Shown here: positions 4,761 through 52,028 of the stretch, in pieces
Layout: each line of letters opens with the position of its first letter
Position numbering within the stretch: the stretch's first letter is position 1
Assembly: GCF_000019165.1 (NCBI RefSeq)
Contig: NC_010337.2
Location: 351,501-415,500 of the forward strand
DNA length: 64,000 nt
Direction of reading: 5' to 3'
Origin: Heliomicrobium modesticaldum Ice1
Lineage (GTDB): Bacteria; Bacillota; Desulfitobacteriia; Heliobacteriales; Heliobacteriaceae
The notes under the pieces: generated by a model
Seen by the model: only the letters and a program-made list of their open reading frames with translations
The model's database searches: none
Told to the model about the DNA's origin: nothing
Program-made: the position numbers and the translations under genes

Positions 4761-5482
4761 AGACACTGCCAAAATCCCCAAAGTCTCTTTTGCCAAACAA
4801 CTTGCAAGGTAAATTGATAGAAATGAATGCCGTCGGAAAATCCTTCCCCTTCGGCGCCAGTCCTTTGCAGGTGCTCTCCGGCATCGACCTGACTGTTGCC
4901 TCAGGGGAGTTTCTGGCTGTCATGGGCCCTTCGGGGAGCGGCAAGTCGACGCTGATGAACCTCATCGGCTGCATGGACCGTCCCAGCGAAGGGCAATACC
5001 GGCTGGCCGGACAGGAGACGGCCCGCCTCACCGAAAAAGAACTCTGCCGCCTGCGCAACGCCATGGTGGGCTTTGTCTTCCAGTCATTCCACCTGCTCCC
5101 GCGCCTGACGGCCTGGCGGAACGTGGAGACACCCCTCTTCTACGCCGGCGTCGCTCCGGAAGAACGACGCCGCCGGGCGAAGGAGCTGTTGGAACGGGTC
5201 GGCCTCGGCCACCGGCTGCATCACCGGCCCACAGAGCTCTCTGGCGGTGAACGGCAGCGTGTCGGCATCGCCCGGGCGCTGGCCAACGATCCTGCCCTGA
5301 TCCTGGCCGATGAGCCAACAGGCAACCTGGACCAACAGACCGGGCAGGAGATCCTCGAACTGTTCGCAGCCCTGCGCCGGGAAGGCAAGACGATCGTCAT
5401 GGTCACCCACGACCCCGATGTGGCGAAGTGGGCCGACCGGGTCGTCCGAATTAAGGATGGGAAGCTCTGTGCAACTGCGTGA
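4757..5482 (+). CDS. ABC transporter ATP-binding protein, MacB/LolD type
   Basis: 241 aa. Walker A GPSGSGKST lies near residue 58, the signature LSGGERQRVGIARAL near residue 160, Walker B ALILADEPTGNLD just after it and the switch His in MVTHDPDVA. The insertion FVFQSFHLLPRLTAWRNVE is typical of the MacB/LolD/FtsE subfamily. It powers the permease encoded immediately downstream. The ATG overlaps the adaptor stop as ATGA, and the 3' end overlaps the permease start, which indicates translational coupling. Confidence 0.95.
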   Translation: MKTLPKSPKSLLPNNLQGKLIEMNAVGKSFPFGASPLQVLSGIDLTVASGEFLAVMGPSGSGKSTLMNLIGCMDRPSEGQYRLAGQETARLTEKELCRLRNAMVGFVFQSFHLLPRLTAWRNVETPLFYAGVAPEERRRRAKELLERVGLGHRLHHRPTELSGGERQRVGIARALANDPALILADEPTGNLDQQTGQEILELFAALRREGKTIVMVTHDPDVAKWADRVVRIKDGKLCATA

Positions 5483-6671
5483 ATATATCCGCCTCGCCGT
5501 AGAAGGCATCGCCGCCCACCGGCTCCGTTCGGGGTTGACCGTGCTTGGCGTCGTCATCGGCGTCTTCGCCGTCGTCACCCTCATGTCCTTGGGAGATACG
5601 GTGCGACGGCAGGTATCAGGTCAGATCGCCGAACTGGGCGCCGGCCTGTTGATGGTCATGTCGGGGAGGGAAGATGCCGGCCACGGTCCCGGCTTCATCA
5701 CCATGAATCTCACCCTGAGCGACGCGGACCGGCTGCGGCAGATCGACGGCGTGGACAAGGTCAACCCCAACCTGACCGTCCCGGCCCGGGCCGAAAGGGC
5801 AAAGGCCGGCCTCAGCGTGACTTGTTACGGCGACAACGCCGATTTTCTCCTCGTTCACGGCTATGAACTGGCCAGCGGGCGCATGTTTCAGGCCAGCGAG
5901 GTCATCGCCCGCAGCCATGTGGTCCTGCTCGGCGCAAAAGCGAAGGAAAGCCTCTTCGGGGACGCCGAGGCGGAGGGCCACATGATCCGTCTGAACGGTG
6001 CCACCTTCCGAGTCATCGGCACTTTGAAGGAAAAAGGAAGGGCTCTCATCCATGACCGCGACCGCATCGTCGTTGCGCCGGTGACGGCCGTCCAGGACTT
6101 CTCGGGCTTGAAAAACATCGGCGTCATTTTTGTGCGCGCCGAAGACCCCTCGCGGGTCCCCCTGGTGCGCGAGCGGATCCTCTCGGTGCTGGCCAAGTCG
6201 CACCGGCAGAAGGATGTGCAGGTCTTCTCCCAAAACGACGCCCTTCAGGTGAGCGACAAGGTCCTGGGCACACTGACGGCCTTCCTGGCCTGCATCGCCG
6301 CCATCTCCCTCGCCGTCGGCGGCATCGGCATCCTCAATATCATGCTCGTCTCTGTGCGAGAAAGGACCCGGGAGATCGGCATCCGGCGCGCCTTGGGGGC
6401 GACGCCCGGACAGATCATGACGCAGTTTCTCCTCGAGGCGCTCTTCCTGGGCGCTGCCGGCGGCGCCGCCGGCTCTGTCTTTTCGGTCCTGGCCGTCTAC
6501 GGCCTGACCTGCTGGGCCGGCTGGGACACAGGCGGCCTGACGCACATCCTCTCCAAAGAGGCGCTGTTGCTCGGCATCCTGGGCGCCTCCGGCATCGGCC
6601 TCCTCTTCGGTCTCTACCCGGCGCTGCAAGCCGCCCGGCTCGATCCTATCGACGCCCTCCGCTACGAGTGA
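5469..6671 (+). CDS. ABC transporter permease, MacB family
   Basis: 400 aa. One N-terminal membrane helix (GLTVLGVVIGVFAVVTLMSL) is followed by a large extracytoplasmic MacB_PCD domain and three C-terminal helices that include GGIGILNIMLVSVRERTREI, the FtsX-type signature. No ATPase domain is fused, unlike proteobacterial MacB. The GTG at 5469 gives the expected short N-terminus; an ATG at 5457 is an alternative. With the adaptor and ATPase it forms a tripartite-like exporter, probably for a peptide, lipid or drug. Confidence 0.92.
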   Translation: MQLREYIRLAVEGIAAHRLRSGLTVLGVVIGVFAVVTLMSLGDTVRRQVSGQIAELGAGLLMVMSGREDAGHGPGFITMNLTLSDADRLRQIDGVDKVNPNLTVPARAERAKAGLSVTCYGDNADFLLVHGYELASGRMFQASEVIARSHVVLLGAKAKESLFGDAEAEGHMIRLNGATFRVIGTLKEKGRALIHDRDRIVVAPVTAVQDFSGLKNIGVIFVRAEDPSRVPLVRERILSVLAKSHRQKDVQVFSQNDALQVSDKVLGTLTAFLACIAAISLAVGGIGILNIMLVSVRERTREIGIRRALGATPGQIMTQFLLEALFLGAAGGAAGSVFSVLAVYGLTCWAGWDTGGLTHILSKEALLLGILGASGIGLLFGLYPALQAARLDPIDALRYE

Positions 6672-6699
6672 GAATCTGTACAGAAACAGGTGATGCTGC

Positions 6700-7005
6700 C
6701 TGGAATCAGTCTGCCCCGCCTGCAACGGCCTCGCCCGCGTCTCCATCCCCTGCCGCCGCTGCAGCGCCCTGATGGAGGACCGGGGGCGGTTGGAGGATTA
6801 CGCCCAGCCCTACAGCCCCTATGATATCGATGATCAACTCGATGAGGCATTCCAAACATTGAACAAAGACAGCCGCGCCGACGGCAGCCATGGGCTCCTA
6901 GAGGGGACCGACCGTCCCGCGCCGGGCGTGGTGTGCACCCATCTCTTCGTCTGCCCCCAGTGCGGCAGCGACCGACAGCTGCCCATCCCCCGCCGTTTCA
7001 TATGA
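6700..7005 (+). CDS. Small zinc-ribbon protein with no AUG start
   Basis: 101 aa if read from a CTG at 6700. The frame carries two N-terminal Cys pairs (CPAC and CRRC, 13 residues apart) and a C-terminal CTHLFVCPQCG, suggesting one or two zinc sites. An in-frame TGA stands at 6691, and the first ATG (6772) would delete the first two Cys pairs. AGGTG lies about 9 nt before the CTG. Either a rare CTG start is used or the gene is broken at its 5' end. It begins 28 nt after the ABC permease stop and may share its transcript. No function is recognised. Confidence 0.5.
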   Translation: MESVCPACNGLARVSIPCRRCSALMEDRGRLEDYAQPYSPYDIDDQLDEAFQTLNKDSRADGSHGLLEGTDRPAPGVVCTHLFVCPQCGSDRQLPIPRRFI

Positions 7006-16736: not shown

Positions 16737-17690
16737 ATGATCCTGGCGCACCTATGGTTCATCTTCCGATCGGGAATTAGACTGTCTCTATCCCTTTGGC
16801 CTGTCGCCCTTCTAACATGGCTGTTTCAGGCACTTTTACTGATCCCCTTGCTGATTCCCCTTTTCTCCTATCTGTCCCATGCCCTGCCGCCGCTGGCGGC
16901 CTTATCCGTACCCGGCGAACCGTCTGCTGCCGGCGTCTCCACCGCACTTTCGCTCGTCGCAGGAAGCCACCCCCGCGATTGGGATGCCATGCAGATCTCT
17001 CTCTACTATGATCTGCTGTTTCCCTTCTCGTCGACAGCCGCCGGGAAGCTCTGGCAAAACCTGCAATGGATACCCTTCCTGCTTTTTGCCCTTCTCCGTC
17101 CCTTCTGGCAAGCCGGCGTCTGGTCTTCCCTTCGTCACCGCCTCGTCTTTCCTCGTCACCGAAAGGGCCTCTTTAGGACCTTTTTTGAAGGCGTCGTCTG
17201 CTGGGGCTATGCCAGCCTCCAGATCGCCCTCTGGCTGGCGCCAGTCTGGATTGGCCTCTGGTGGCTTTTCGACAGCCTGTCCAACCGGTTTGACGCCATT
17301 TCTTGGTCCCCGGCAGCATCGCTCCTCATCGCGGGCTTATCCATAATGGTCATCGCTGACCTCCTAGGCCTAGTCGGCGATGCGGCGCGCTGGCGACTGG
17401 TCATGTCTCCTGCTGGTGAAAAGAGGCGCCTTCTCGGACTGCTTCGATCGACAGCATCCGGGCTCACCCGCCACCTCGCTCCGCTGCTGTTGGCCCGCTT
17501 TGCCTTAAACATCATCTTTCTCATCGCCTTGTCGCTGATGCTGTGGTCGCTGCAGCAGTGGCCTGCAGAGGGAATCACCGGAATGACCGGCGCCTTCCTG
17601 TTGCAGCAGACGTCTGTCTTTCTCCTCATCTTTTCCCGGCTTGCCTTAATGGGCGCGACTGCCAGATATCTCCAAAAAACGCAGACCTAA
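16737..17690 (+). CDS. Polytopic membrane protein, unknown
   Basis: 317 aa with about six hydrophobic segments (for example LLLIPLLIPLFSYL and LLLARFALNIIFLIAL). Many Arg residues flank the helices. AGGAGG stands just before adjacent GTG (16734) and ATG (16737) codons. The gap to the preceding gene is 58 nt on the same strand, so the two may be co-transcribed. No family recognised. Confidence 0.6.
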   Translation: MILAHLWFIFRSGIRLSLSLWPVALLTWLFQALLLIPLLIPLFSYLSHALPPLAALSVPGEPSAAGVSTALSLVAGSHPRDWDAMQISLYYDLLFPFSSTAAGKLWQNLQWIPFLLFALLRPFWQAGVWSSLRHRLVFPRHRKGLFRTFFEGVVCWGYASLQIALWLAPVWIGLWWLFDSLSNRFDAISWSPAASLLIAGLSIMVIADLLGLVGDAARWRLVMSPAGEKRRLLGLLRSTASGLTRHLAPLLLARFALNIIFLIALSLMLWSLQQWPAEGITGMTGAFLLQQTSVFLLIFSRLALMGATARYLQKTQT

Positions 17691-17971
17691 CAGACCTTCC
17701 TTGCAAAGGATTAAGCCAGACCACCAGCGCTGCATAAACATAAACTCGATTTATCAACCGAAAGGTGAGCTTTTGGAAAAGATAGCTTGGGCAATGGCCC
17801 GGCTTTCTTCATTTACGTTGACAGATTGAGCATTTGTTTGGCCAGTAAACTGGTTTGAAGGATAGGGGAAAGAATTGGCGAAATAGTAAATAACGTCCGC
17901 CATTGTATAGTGCGCTGGAGACTTTGTCCGAATGGCTGGTAATGGAGCCTAGCAAAATAGGGGGAATTAGG

Positions 17972-18991
17972 ATGAGCACATTCACGCGCCTTCAAGCAGA
18001 AAACTTTTCCGCCTTTGAGAGTCTCGATTTATCTTTTTCCCCGGGGATAAACGTTTTTATTGGCAAAAACGGCACCGGCAAAACCCATGTCATGAAGACG
18101 TTATACGCTGCCGGAGCGATTACAGGCAGGCTTGAAGGCTTTATCGATAAGATGATACGTATTTTTCTACCTTACGAATATAGAATCGGCAGACTAGTGC
18201 GGAGAAAAAGAGGGTCGACTACCGCAAAGATCGTTGTATCCTGCAATAAAGAGCAACTCAGTCTTACCTTTACCAATCACTCAAAAAACACGCCGATTGA
18301 TGCTAATGAGGAGAAGTGGAAGAAGCTCAAGATTAAATGCGCCTATATTCCAGTCAAAGAAATGCTGGCGAATGCGCCGGGATTTCGCTCGCTCTATTCG
18401 GAGCGACTCGTCCATTTTGAAGAAATCTATGCCGATATCATTGACCGCGCCTATCTGCCTCCCAAAAGGGGGCCATTGGAGGAGAACCGGGCCAATCTAT
18501 TACGGAAGCTGGAAAACGTCTTAGAGGGTAAGGTTGTCACAGAAGGCGAAACCTTTTTCTTAAAAAATAATCAGGGAATGTTGGAATTCACCCTGCTCGC
18601 CGAAGGGTTGCGAAAGCTGGCGCTGCTTTGGCTACTGATCCAAAACGAAACACTATTAAAGGGGTCGGTTTTGTTTTGGGACGAACCGGAAGCAAATCTT
18701 AACCCGCAGATGGTACGGGTCGTTGTGGAGATCTTACTGGAGTTGCAGCGTTTTGGCGTACAAGTGTTTATTGCGACCCATGACTATGTGACACTGAAGG
18801 AATTCGAGCTTCAACGAACAAAAGAAGATAAGATATTATTTCACTCTTTTTTCCGCAAAGATGATGGTGAACCGGTCGATATTTCGACCTCTAGTGATTA
18901 CAGCCTTATCGATGAAAATGCGATCATAGATAAATACCTGGACCTCTATGATCGGGAGGTTCATAAGGCGCTGGGAGGAGAAGAGGTTTGA
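17972..18991 (+). CDS. AAA-family (SMC/RecF-like) ATPase, first gene of an ATPase-nuclease pair
   Basis: 339 aa. The N-terminus reads as an SMC/RecF-type ATPase: an RLQAENF...F strand, then Walker A GKNGTGKT at residues 31-38. The C-terminal half has Walker B VLFWDEPEANLNP near residue 235 and the switch His in FIATHDYVTL near residue 268. The region between is about 190 aa, too short for a long coiled coil, which fits the AAA_15/AAA_21 group found in defence systems and OLD-like proteins. No TOPRIM domain is fused. The stop overlaps the start of the next gene, which encodes a PD-(D/E)XK-like protein. The ribosome site before ATG 17972 is weak. Confidence 0.82.
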   Translation: MSTFTRLQAENFSAFESLDLSFSPGINVFIGKNGTGKTHVMKTLYAAGAITGRLEGFIDKMIRIFLPYEYRIGRLVRRKRGSTTAKIVVSCNKEQLSLTFTNHSKNTPIDANEEKWKKLKIKCAYIPVKEMLANAPGFRSLYSERLVHFEEIYADIIDRAYLPPKRGPLEENRANLLRKLENVLEGKVVTEGETFFLKNNQGMLEFTLLAEGLRKLALLWLLIQNETLLKGSVLFWDEPEANLNPQMVRVVVEILLELQRFGVQVFIATHDYVTLKEFELQRTKEDKILFHSFFRKDDGEPVDISTSSDYSLIDENAIIDKYLDLYDREVHKALGGEEV

Positions 18992-19491
18992 TTTTCAGGG
19001 AGAACCAGTTAGAATTTAACTTTACTGGCGCCTTGTCTGTCGAAAAACTAGACCAGCCTGGACAGACACTACCAGAGGGGATGAAGTTTGTAGATTTTGT
19101 GGTAGAAACCGAGGATTCAGTTTTGCTTATTGAAGTAAAAGATCCGAGCAATACACATGCATTGCAACAAACCAGGGTTGAGTTTATCAATCGAATGCAC
19201 AGTGATACACTAGTGGTTAAGGAACTGGTACCGAAGTGCCGGGATAGTTATACGTACTTACATCTGATGGAGAGAGATGGAAAACCCTTTACCTACATCG
19301 TCCTCATCTGTCTGGAGAATTTGAATTTTGATCCTAGGCTATTGCCCGTCGTTACAACAAAATTACGTGCGAGATTGAACAAAGAAGGAGAGCAGCCATG
19401 GAGAAGAACGTACATATCGAACTGTCAAATAATAGACTGTGAGCGCTGGAATCGTGTTATGCCCTATCCTGTAAAACGTGTGGTCACTTAG
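18988..19491 (+). CDS. Putative PD-(D/E)XK nuclease-like protein partnered with the ATPase
   Basis: 167 aa. The core is FVDFVVETEDSVLLIEVKD at residues 34-52: Asp36, 12 residues, then Glu49-Val-Lys51, each on a hydrophobic strand. This is the D-x(n)-ExK arrangement of PD-(D/E)XK nucleases. The rest of the protein matches nothing I recognise. It starts with TTG overlapping the ATPase stop (TTGA), with GGAGGAGAAGAGG upstream, so the two proteins are made in coupled amounts. A nuclease is inferred from one motif; a degenerate or binding-only fold is possible. Confidence 0.6.
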   Translation: MIFRENQLEFNFTGALSVEKLDQPGQTLPEGMKFVDFVVETEDSVLLIEVKDPSNTHALQQTRVEFINRMHSDTLVVKELVPKCRDSYTYLHLMERDGKPFTYIVLICLENLNFDPRLLPVVTTKLRARLNKEGEQPWRRTYISNCQIIDCERWNRVMPYPVKRVVT

Positions 19492-19522
19492 AAAGAACAT
19501 AAAAAATTGAACCGCCTGAAAG

Positions 19523-19573
19523 GAAAAAGACGCCCCTGATAAGGCACTACCGGTAAGCAGCACCAAGGGCGTC
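19523..19573 (-). terminator. Probable terminator downstream of the globin-coupled sensor gene
   Basis: On the minus strand GACGCCC (19573-19567) pairs with GGGCGTC (19535-19529), followed by TTTTT. The 31-nt interior is partly self-complementary. It lies about 130 nt past the sensor stop. Confidence 0.55.
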
Positions 19574-19702
19574 CGCACTAAAAAACATTCCCAAGGAAAG
19601 GCCTTCTCCGCCGTTACCGATGATAACCAGCGCACGAAGGCCTGTTGGCGCATAAGGCGTCGTTCCTGGCTTTCTCTTTTGCGCCTGTCAGTTTAGGCTT
19701 GA

Positions 19703-20998
19703 TCAGCGATTGATGGCCATGACGGACAGCGCCTCGGCAGACCGGGCCACTTCATCAGAGGCTTCCTCGATCTGCTTGGACGTGGTTGTCAGGCTCTCGA
19801 TCTCCGTGGCGATCTGTTTCACCTTATCCTGGTTGTAGCCGATGGACTTGATGATCTCGCCGAAGCTACGAACGACCTCAGCCGCCTGTTGGGAAGCAGC
19901 GTCCATGGCCTTGCTCGTATCGACCATGGCTTGGGAGACTTCGAGCGTGTGCTGGCGCGAGATCCGGATCATTTCGGCGATCTCCTGGACCGACTGTTCC
20001 GAGAATCCGGCCAGCTTCTTCACCTCGTTAGCGACGACGGTGAAGCCGCGGCCCGATTCGCCGGCCCGAGCGGCTTCAATGGCGGCATTCAGGGAGAGCA
20101 GGTTCGTCTGGGTGGCGATGCCCTGGATGACGCCGGCGATCGACTCGATCTTCTCAGAGCTCTCGTCGAGGGCCTTGATCTTGTCCTGCATGCCCTGAAT
20201 CAGGACGTTGAGGTTTTCAATGGCCGTGCCGGTCTGCTGGATCCGTTTCTCGCCGCTCTCGGCCAACTGATTGACCTGGCTGGCGAACTGGGTGGCCTGA
20301 ATGGCGTTTTGGGCGATGCGTTGGGCCGCCGAGGCCATCTCGGCCGCCGAGGCTGCCGTCTCTTCGGCGGTGGCCGCCAAGGTCTGGCTGGAGTCGTTGA
20401 CCCGGGTTTGCAGGAGTTGAATTTCGTTGAGGGCATTTTCAAGCTCTGCCTTCTTGTCGATCTCCTGCATGTAATCGGTGATGTAGGCGGACATGACCGT
20501 CTGCTGGTCTAGGTTGGTCAGGCGCTGCAGCGCCGTGTTGACTTCCAGCGCCCGTCCCTTGTCGCGCATCTCTTCCAAAATGGGAATGATGGCGTTGAAG
20601 AGCGCCTGGTAGGCAGCCGTGTACCAGTAAGCCGGCAATTTGATCCGATTATGTACATGACCGATCTTTTGACGTTCTTCGATATAGCGGTCATCCACTT
20701 TGTCGGTGAAGAGGCTCTTCAAGTACCCTTTGAAGGTTACCCGCAACTTATCGACAGACGAATGGGTTTCGATGAACGATTTCAACTCAGGGATTGCAAG
20801 GAGCTGCTTATAGAAGTTGTTGGCCACCTCGTCGAGACGCGGCTCGATCAACGGGCGCAGTTCCGCTAGTAATGCCAAGTCCCGCGTGCTGAGGTTAAGC
20901 AGCTTTTGCGCCACCTTCGCCTCTTCGCCGGATACGTTGATGGACATGCCGGCTGGTATCGTTACAGGGCCGCTACTTTGGTTCCGGCCGAAAAACAT
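19703..20998 (-). CDS. Soluble globin-coupled methyl-accepting sensor (HemAT-like)
   Basis: 431 aa. The N-terminal protoglobin domain (residues 25-185) carries the proximal haem His116 in [14 protein letters not shown] and a distal-side Tyr63 in NNFYKQL. The C-terminal half is an MCP signalling domain with the hairpin tip [21 protein letters not shown] near residue 300. There is no membrane helix and no C-terminal CheR tether. HemAT proteins sense O2 and drive aerotaxis through CheA/CheW; in an anaerobe this would serve avoidance or redox sensing. The ATG at 20998 has a G run 7 nt upstream; the ATG at 21013 overlaps AAGGAG. Confidence 0.92.
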
Positions 20999-50144: not shown

Positions 50145-52028
50145 GTGCGCCCGGCATGGGCGTTGTCTCTAGGGTGGAAGTCCCGAACGCCGAAGGTGGC
50201 AGTAGGCGTTAGCTTAAGGCAAGGGTGTCCGCCGCGAGGCGGAATCTGAAGGAAGCCAGCGGCAAACCTCCGGCCCGAGGACCACGAACCCCAGGTGAGG
50301 CTAGCGGCAGTTGGATGAGCTTGCCGAACAAAGCGAAGTCCTTGTCACCGAAGGCTGCCGAGAGTAAATGGGGCGGGTAGATGGAGGGAAAGGCAACGTT
50401 CTTACCCGGGGAGGCCTGCCGGGGGACCAAGTAACTTGGGAAACCACGCCGAAAGGCGTGGCTGAACCGGCAGGAGTCAGCAGAGGTCATAGTAGGCTGG
50501 CCCGACGTCCGGCCAGATGAAGGACCGAACATGATGGAAGGGGAAGCGACGATGCGTTCGCGTGACGCGCAGAGACAGCCGAATATCCCGAAAGGGAACT
50601 GCCAACGGGAGGAAGCGGTGAATCCGCAGGGGACCGGTGGAGTGCCGAGCGCGTTACCGGCACAAGAAGCGAAGCAACCCCGTGAAGAGACGTATGACCT
50701 GATGGAGAAAGTCGTCGAACGAGGGAACATGACGGAAGCGTATAAGCGAGTCATGGCCAACAAAGGCGCGGCCGGAATCGACGGTATGGGGCTAGAATCC
50801 CTGCGCCCGTACCTAAAAGAGGAATGGTCGCGCATTAAACAGGAATTGTTGGAGGGGACCTATCGACCGCAACCGGTCCGGCGGGTTGAAATTCCCAAAC
50901 CCCAAGGCGGAACACGGAAGCTGGGCATTCCCACTGTCGTCGATCGACTGATCCAACAGGCCCTGAACCAGATCCTGATGCCGATCTTCGACCCTGACTT
51001 TTCCACGAACAGCTACGGATTTCGTCCGGGAAAGAGTGCGCACCAAGCGGTGAAGAAAGCGAAGGAATACATCGCCGACGGCTACCGATGGGTGGTTGAC
51101 ATGGACCTGGCCCAGTTCTTTGATCGCGTCAATCACGACATTCTCATGGCGCGCGTAGCGCGCAAGGTGAAGGACAAACGAATCTTGAAGTTGATCCGAG
51201 AATACCTCAAGGCCGGGGTCATGCTCAACGGGATTCGTGTGAAGAGCGAGGAAGGAACACCCCAGGGAGGTCCACTCAGCCCTTTGCTGGCGAACATCAT
51301 CCTGGATGATTTGGATAAGGCACTGGAAAGCCGGGGACATCGCTTCTGCCGGTACGCCGACGACTGTAACGTCTACGTCCGCAGTCGACGGGCAGGGCAA
51401 CGAGTGATGGAGGGTATGGCAAAGTTTCTGGAGGGGCGGTTAAAACTGCAGGTCAACTGGGAGAAAAGCGCAGTCGACCGACCCTGGAACCGAAAGTTTC
51501 TGGGGTTTTCATTTACGTGGCATAAGGCAGCAAAGATTCGGCTCGCCCCCCAAACGGTGAAACGGGTGAAAGAGAAGATCCGCCAGTTCACTGGGCGGAA
51601 CCGAAGCATTGCGATGGAGGACCGACTGGTCACCCTCAACCAATACCTGAAAGGCTGGATGGGCTACTTTCGACTCATTGACACGCCAAGCGTACTTAAA
51701 GAGTTGGATGAGTGGCTTCGCCGACGACTGCGGATGTGCCTACTCAAGCAATGGAAGCGCCCGAAGACACGAAGACGAAACTTAGTGGCGTTGGGGATCC
51801 CGGAGGAATGGGCATGCAACATCAGCGGCTCACGAAAAGGATATTGGCGTCTGTCCTTGACCCCGCAAATGAATAAAGCCCTTGGCCTCGCCTACTGGCG
51901 GGAACAGGGCTTAGTCAGTTTAGTCGAAACATACCAATCTCATCGTCAACCAGCATGAACCGCCGTATACCGAACGGTACGTACGGTGGTGTGAGAGGAC
52001 GGGGGTTAATCACCCCCTCCTACTCGAT
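50145..52028 (+). mobile_element. Group IIC (bacterial class C) intron
   Basis: The intron starts GTGCGCCCGGCATGGGC, and its ribozyme domains I-IV flank a maturase gene. Domain V is at about 51956-52000: AACCGCCGTATACCGAACGG then TACGTACGGTGGTGTGAGAG in the DV/linker, closely like the Oceanobacillus iheyensis group IIC intron as I remember it. Domain VI ends CCTCCTACTCGAT at 52028. It sits immediately behind a Rho-independent terminator, the known target preference of class C introns. Full length is about 1.88 kb, with no sign of decay. Confidence 0.92.
50531..51958 (+). CDS. ltrA: Group II intron reverse transcriptase/maturase
   Basis: 475 aa. Reverse-transcriptase motifs are intact: NKGAAGIDGM, GFRPGKSAHQAV, VVDMDLAQFFDRVNHDIL, GTPQGGPLSPLLANI and the catalytic FCRYADDCNVYV. 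Domain X (maturase) follows (LVTLNQYLKGWMGYFRL). The protein ends after SLTPQMNKALGLAYW...LVSLVETY with no HNH endonuclease domain, as in class C introns. It splices its own intron and drives retrohoming. The start at 50531 is the first ATG of the frame; its ribosome site is modest. Confidence 0.95.
   Translation: MMEGEATMRSRDAQRQPNIPKGNCQREEAVNPQGTGGVPSALPAQEAKQPREETYDLMEKVVERGNMTEAYKRVMANKGAAGIDGMGLESLRPYLKEEWSRIKQELLEGTYRPQPVRRVEIPKPQGGTRKLGIPTVVDRLIQQALNQILMPIFDPDFSTNSYGFRPGKSAHQAVKKAKEYIADGYRWVVDMDLAQFFDRVNHDILMARVARKVKDKRILKLIREYLKAGVMLNGIRVKSEEGTPQGGPLSPLLANIILDDLDKALESRGHRFCRYADDCNVYVRSRRAGQRVMEGMAKFLEGRLKLQVNWEKSAVDRPWNRKFLGFSFTWHKAAKIRLAPQTVKRVKEKIRQFTGRNRSIAMEDRLVTLNQYLKGWMGYFRLIDTPSVLKELDEWLRRRLRMCLLKQWKRPKTRRRNLVALGIPEEWACNISGSRKGYWRLSLTPQMNKALGLAYWREQGLVSLVETYQSHRQPA

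Follow-up and report, generated by a model that had tools for sequence, protein, structure and literature searches.

WonAB is a tested pair of an OLD-type ATPase and a PD-(D/E)xK nuclease, in which both genes are needed for protection (PMC12137116). Its protection is lost in the ATPase mutants K34A, E300A and H333A and in the nuclease mutant K71A, the action of WonB requires WonA, and activation halts translation and aborts the infection, with genomic DNA spared (PMC12137116). OLD-ABC/PD-(D/E)XK dyads have been described in BREX and BREX-related loci, where they are treated as back-up effectors of BREX; the main text of that report does not use the HEC name (PMC12839542). PARIS (AriA-AriB) likewise joins an OLD-type ATPase to a nuclease inside BREX operons (PMC11341690), AriB being a TOPRIM nuclease. 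Septu (PtuAB) and the PtuAB proteins of retron Ec78 also combine an ATPase with a nuclease, here the HNH nuclease PtuB, and Gabija consists of an ATPase fused to TOPRIM with a UvrD-like helicase as partner. Finally, PADLOC-DB v2 lists HEC-02, where HEC denotes Hma-embedded candidate and the preprint of Payne et al. 2024 (10.1101/2024.01.29.577857) is cited; we found no published experimental test of HEC-02 in the literature searched.

Here we describe a gene pair from Heliomicrobium modesticaldum Ice1, located in a window of 64,000 nucleotides (bases 351,501–415,500 of NC_010337.2) and consisting of an ATPase gene, whose product we call A, and a downstream partner gene, whose product we call B. 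As judged from its sequence, the pair is a stand-alone, chromosomal and intact member of the catalogued candidate defence system PADLOC HEC-02. This kind of system has been met three times, as HEC-02, as WonAB with its 'OLD-ABC + novel REase' relatives, and as the OLD-ABC/PD-(D/E)XK dyads in BREX (PMC12839542). Since systems of this kind have been published before, including cases within BREX, the locus adds little in that respect and leaves concepts unchanged; what is new is an intact stand-alone HEC-02 member in a heliobacterium.

The ATPase and its putative nuclease partner

The two overlapping genes proposed in a preliminary description of this DNA are real, and their coordinates and those of the associated features are given in Table 1. 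Comparison of the window with its congener G002 gives dN/dS values of ~0.04 (ATPase) and ~0.12 (partner), and thus both genes are under purifying selection, with the partner changing faster.

Table 1. Features of the heliobacterial pair and its leader (window coordinates)
Feature	Position	Strand	Details or basis
ATPase gene (A), HEC-02A-type, OLD/ABC-class	17972..18991	+	339 aa, ATG start
Partner gene (B), HEC-02B-type, small PD-(D/E)XK-like putative nuclease	18988..19491	+	167 aa, TTG start
Stop/start overlap TTGA, predicted coupled translation	18988..18991	+	4 nt; sequence; relatives
GGGAGGAG, likely ribosome-binding site of gene B, within the ATPase gene	18973..18980	+	Sequence, inference
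Leader travelling with the pair	17771..17971	+	Aligns with the leaders of G001 and G002; matched once in each congener genome
Terminator-like hairpin in leader	17787-17802	+	Terminator scan; kept in three genomes
27-nt leader block GAAGGATAGGGGAAAGAATTGGCGAAA	17857-17883	+	Kept in three genomes
Imperfect inverted repeat CCAGT-AA-ACTGG	17842..17853	.	5-nt arms, AA centre

The motifs ascribed to A lie where they had been placed, with Walker A (GKNGTGKT) at residues 31–38 and Walker B (FWDEPE) at residues 235–240, and A in addition has an AEGxRK signature (residues 210–215) and an ATHD H-loop (residues 268–271). Two alignments showed that the P-loop, the AEGxRK signature, the FWDEPE Walker B, the D-loop and the H-loop are invariant or nearly so across the relatives of A. 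The PADLOC HEC-02A model PDLC04213 matches A over residues 3–335 of 339 (E=7.9e-128). As had been claimed, A contains no TOPRIM domain, and no long coiled coil was found within its 339 residues. An AF2 model of A was obtained with a pLDDT of 80 and a pTM of 0.84; its best Foldseek matches are PtuA from Septu and retron Ec78, which is the top fold match, followed by Rad50 and SMC heads (E~1e-12).

B had been said to fit no known nuclease family. Pfam and NCBIfam searches with B alone indeed returned no family or name, but B matches the HEC-02B model PDLC04220 over residues 2–166 of 167 (E=3.9e-67) and is PD-(D/E)XK-like; among 30 relatives of the partner, 29 match an HEC-02B model. The residues on which the nuclease proposal was built, D36, E49 and K51, are all present. 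The D-x12-ExK string alone means little, because something similar (D-x(9-15)-ExK) turns up by chance: when 160 arbitrary pieces of 167 aa were taken from the window, 13 contained it. The core is nevertheless credible, because its residues are conserved in relatives: among 51 partner sequences, a few of which are near-copies, position 36 is D in 41, E in 9 and N in 1, while E49 and K51 are each kept in 49 and K83 in 47. In the AF2 model of B, which was built from the window and homologous-locus sequences (pLDDT 87.7, pTM 0.86), strands 37–40 and 45–51 form a β-hairpin that is followed by a helix (residues 74–93) carrying K83 and by a strand (residues 101–107). The register of the hairpin, as read from the strand limits, would set D36 opposite E49.

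Foldseek returned no match to the B model with E<=1e-3, and searches of PDB sequences with B, as a single protein and as a profile, gave nothing significant. The best PDB fold matches, all weak, are mostly PD-(D/E)XK enzymes, namely BspD6I, Hjc, PspGI, Mus81-Eme1, RecU and R2 endonuclease, and the best matches in a library of viral structures include endonuclease I and RecU. Single relatives of B also give weak Pfam matches to NERD (7e-5), pPIWI_RE_REase and Tox-REase-9. The predicted fold, the conserved residues and the weak fold and Pfam matches agree with the proposed PD-(D/E)XK fold, and the evidence that B belongs to this superfamily is good though not final.

These properties separate the pair from PARIS, Septu and Gabija. 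A gives a weak match to AriA models (E=2e-22), but B is of the HEC-02B type rather than TOPRIM and has no AriB match, and we therefore rejected membership in PARIS. Septu was rejected since B has no HNH match; PtuA is also larger than A. Gabija was rejected since A, at 339 aa, lacks TOPRIM and no helicase gene is adjacent. With HEC-02, by comparison, both heliobacterial proteins agree over their full length, and so do gene order and coupling. In the database itself two labels look swapped, as PDLC04145, named 'HEC-02A' (170 positions), matches the nuclease and PDLC04146, named 'HEC-02B' (344 positions), matches the ATPase.

The fold matches bear on a possible, if rather unlikely, alternative, in which A would recognise DNA structures of phages or plasmids and B would be a restriction-type DNase that cuts the invading DNA without host suicide. 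The best-matching folds are DNA nucleases in the case of B (Hjc, RecU, BspD6I, Mus81) and PtuA and Rad50 in that of A, Rad50-like and Septu ATPases can recognise DNA structures, and many relatives of the pair lie inside DNA-methylating systems. However, the heliobacterial pair has no modification gene that would protect self DNA, and WonAB, the best tested analogue, acts by blocking translation and does not degrade genomic DNA (PMC12137116).

Linkage and operon contexts of the relatives

We searched for ATPase loci in Bacillota and Pseudomonadota genomes, plasmids and viral contigs and obtained 60, of which 55 were non-redundant after five duplicates had been taken out by hand; these come from Bacillota, Pseudomonadota, Cyanobacteriota, plasmids and viral contigs. 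Co-occurrence of the two genes had been set beforehand as a test of the pair, and the partner lies directly downstream of the ATPase in 48 of the 55 loci, and 32 of those 48 show the identical 4-nt overlap. The carriage of relatives by plasmids and viral contigs is a sign of mobility. A search of phage records returned two matches to A, both in uncultured phage records, and no match to B.

The preliminary description had also suggested a search for enrichment in defence islands, and relatives often lie in BREX, BREX-related and Hma operons. The pair is embedded in BREX-1, BREX-2, BREX-related or Hma operons in 14 of the 43 loci with useful flanks, compared to none of 14 stretches drawn at random from those genomes; when the comparison is confined to the genomes that supplied the random stretches, the counts are 5/19 versus 0/14. 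A PADLOC scan of the neighbours at 1e-20 found 120 and 42 families versus 7 in control stretches, counts that are only indicative since many models of one gene overlap. Together, the family match, the linkage and the operon contexts support the reading of the pair as a defence module.

Nine loci are embedded in BREX-1 (L005, L010, L011, L045, L047, L048, L108, L110 and L116). A position between brxC and pglX is found on Methylomonas and Sphingobium plasmids, in genomes G981 and G820, and in the viral contigs L045, L047 and L048. In the BREX-1 operon of a Comamonadaceae contig (L005, 5021-8528 onward) the pair lies inside pglX, which is thereby divided into two reading frames, an N-half (5021-6835) and a C-half (from 8791). 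In L116 (G912) the embedded pair is followed by PglZ and BrxL. The published dyads (PMC12839542) have the same architecture as our pair, and their operon position is that of L010, L011, L005, L108 and L110. A BREX-2 case is L148, on the Polaromonas naphthalenivorans plasmid pPNAP01, where an HEC-02-like pair directly follows pglX. BREX-related DUF1156/DUF499 operons harbour L104 and L106 (G1187, G813), and Hma operons harbour L043 and, in G579, L144. The latter two are the nearest relatives beyond the heliobacterial family: in the ATPase tree eight of the nine BREX-1 copies fall into one clade (100/100), and the heliobacterial copies join the clade that holds the Hma-embedded ones (95/87). The system thereby gains an operon-specific phylogeny, with a BREX-1 clade and with the heliobacterial ATPases alongside the Hma lineage.

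Such repeated embedding beside the methyltransferase of BREX-1, BREX-2, BREX-related and Hma operons is consistent with a back-up alarm, a reading that we regard as doubtful for the pair described here, in which A would sense anti-restriction proteins (DNA mimics, e.g. Ocr) with which phages disable BREX, Hma or restriction enzymes, and would fire B as PARIS does. Such a layer has been proposed for OLD-ABC/nuclease pairs in BREX (PMC12839542), and PARIS is present in BREX loci and is able to respond to Ocr, although the PARIS embedded in a Salmonella BREX island gave no Ocr response (PMC11341690). BrxC is absent from four heliobacterial genomes, HmaB is absent except for a partial match in G002, and the genome of the window has neither. 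The pair of the window therefore does not back up BREX or Hma, and its trigger cannot be the loss of either. More speculatively, and with a low probability in our estimate, HEC-02 might be a portable back-up module that was adopted separately by several methylation-based systems, once in a lineage devoted to BREX-1 and again near Hma, each being adapted to whichever anti-restriction proteins overcome the system that hosts it. On this view the heliobacterial copies would form an independent branch that responds to a trigger of its own and whose expression is controlled by a conserved leader RNA.

Proposed mode of action

The reading that we prefer, and consider probable by analogy with WonAB, is that stand-alone HEC-02 uses its OLD/ABC ATPase to sense phage and to license the PD-(D/E)XK nuclease, whereupon the infection is aborted. 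It builds on the conservation and coupling of the pair, on its family assignment and folds, and on the defence operons in which relatives lie, as described above. A would dimerise on ATP and sense something made or changed by the infecting phage, and would bind the small nuclease B in a complex and license it in an ATP-gated manner. B would then cut nucleic acid, with shutdown of the cell and abortion of the infection. As to its target, WonAB suggests that a host RNA for translation (tRNA or rRNA) is more likely than bulk DNA.

In both WonAB and the heliobacterial pair the gene for an OLD-type ABC ATPase precedes that for a PD-(D/E)xK nuclease, and the catalytic residues match (Walker A Lys, Walker B Glu and H-loop His of the ATPase, and Lys of the nuclease). 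WonA, which we compared by its published description, has a C-terminal extension that docks WonB and is larger than A, its Walker B Glu being residue 300 rather than 238; because of this difference in size the WonAB mechanism is transferred by analogy. Krishnan et al. 2020 is a further reference on WonAB-like systems. With these correspondences a named candidate system gains a catalytic hypothesis, centred on E49, K51 and the Walker Lys, and should the pair work like WonAB, the OLD-ABC/PD-(D/E)XK abortive-infection family would be widened to photosynthetic Bacillota.

The heliobacterial locus and its leader

In contrast to the Hma-embedded members of HEC-02, the heliobacterial pair stands alone among housekeeping genes. 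Its flanks encode a membrane protein, TerC, an M1 peptidase, a protoglobin-MCP, a GerM-like protein and a CBS/nucleotidyltransferase protein, and we rejected a local defence island since these are housekeeping-type genes. Collinear flanks enclose a PGA_cap (CapA-like) gene in the corresponding slot of G001, G002 and G004, and an almost empty slot, a gap of ~90 bp, in G003. The locus thus presents a gene-for-gene exchange at one site (window 17690-19703 versus L034 2508-3722, L035 4188-5507 and L036 3757-4980). The congeners G001 and G002 carry the pair at another chromosomal site, adjoining a gene for a 169-aa membrane protein, which argues that the pair moves, together with ~200 nt of leader.

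Natural variants are on offer among these genomes in addition to the stand-alone pair. In G001 (L038 5891-8759) the ATPase gene is interrupted after about codon 58 by an ISL3-type transposase gene, and the nuclease gene is unbroken. G003 carries an orphan HEC-02A-like ATPase (L146 / L066, C1:1321911-1322879) that is 65% identical and shortened at its end; it has no nuclease gene and lies near a flagellin-like gene. The broken copy in G001 bears on another reading, in which the genes would serve plasmid maintenance or act like a toxin-antitoxin pair and would lack a specific role against phages, as might be supposed from a coupled two-gene operon that is common on plasmids and from the match of A to Pfam AAA_21, 'putative AbiEii toxin' (E=7e-20). 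We regard this as very improbable. Catalytic roles are reversed relative to the AbiE pair, the genes recur embedded in defence operons, and A keeps all ATPase motifs; moreover, since G001 tolerates an intact B beside an IS-split A, a B that is toxic without A is hard to reconcile with the data.

The leader aligns with those of G001 and G002 and includes a terminator-like hairpin and a conserved block (Table 1). An Rfam search of the leader gave no match of note, and a promoter scan found nothing above chance. A 35-nt match to the leader block is present in G004, in an intergenic region without the pair (L141, around 1501-1536). The 'perfect palindrome' CCAGTAAACTGG of the preliminary description is not one, as its reverse complement is CCAGTTTACTGG and it consists of 5-bp arms around AA. 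The leaders of G001 and G002, although conserved in other respects, lack it. Being neither palindromic nor conserved, the inverted repeat was rejected as an operator and is probably unrelated to the pair. The CCAGTNNACTGG inverted repeat pattern occurs once more, at window 51583-51594, with 0.01 copies expected by chance in the window.
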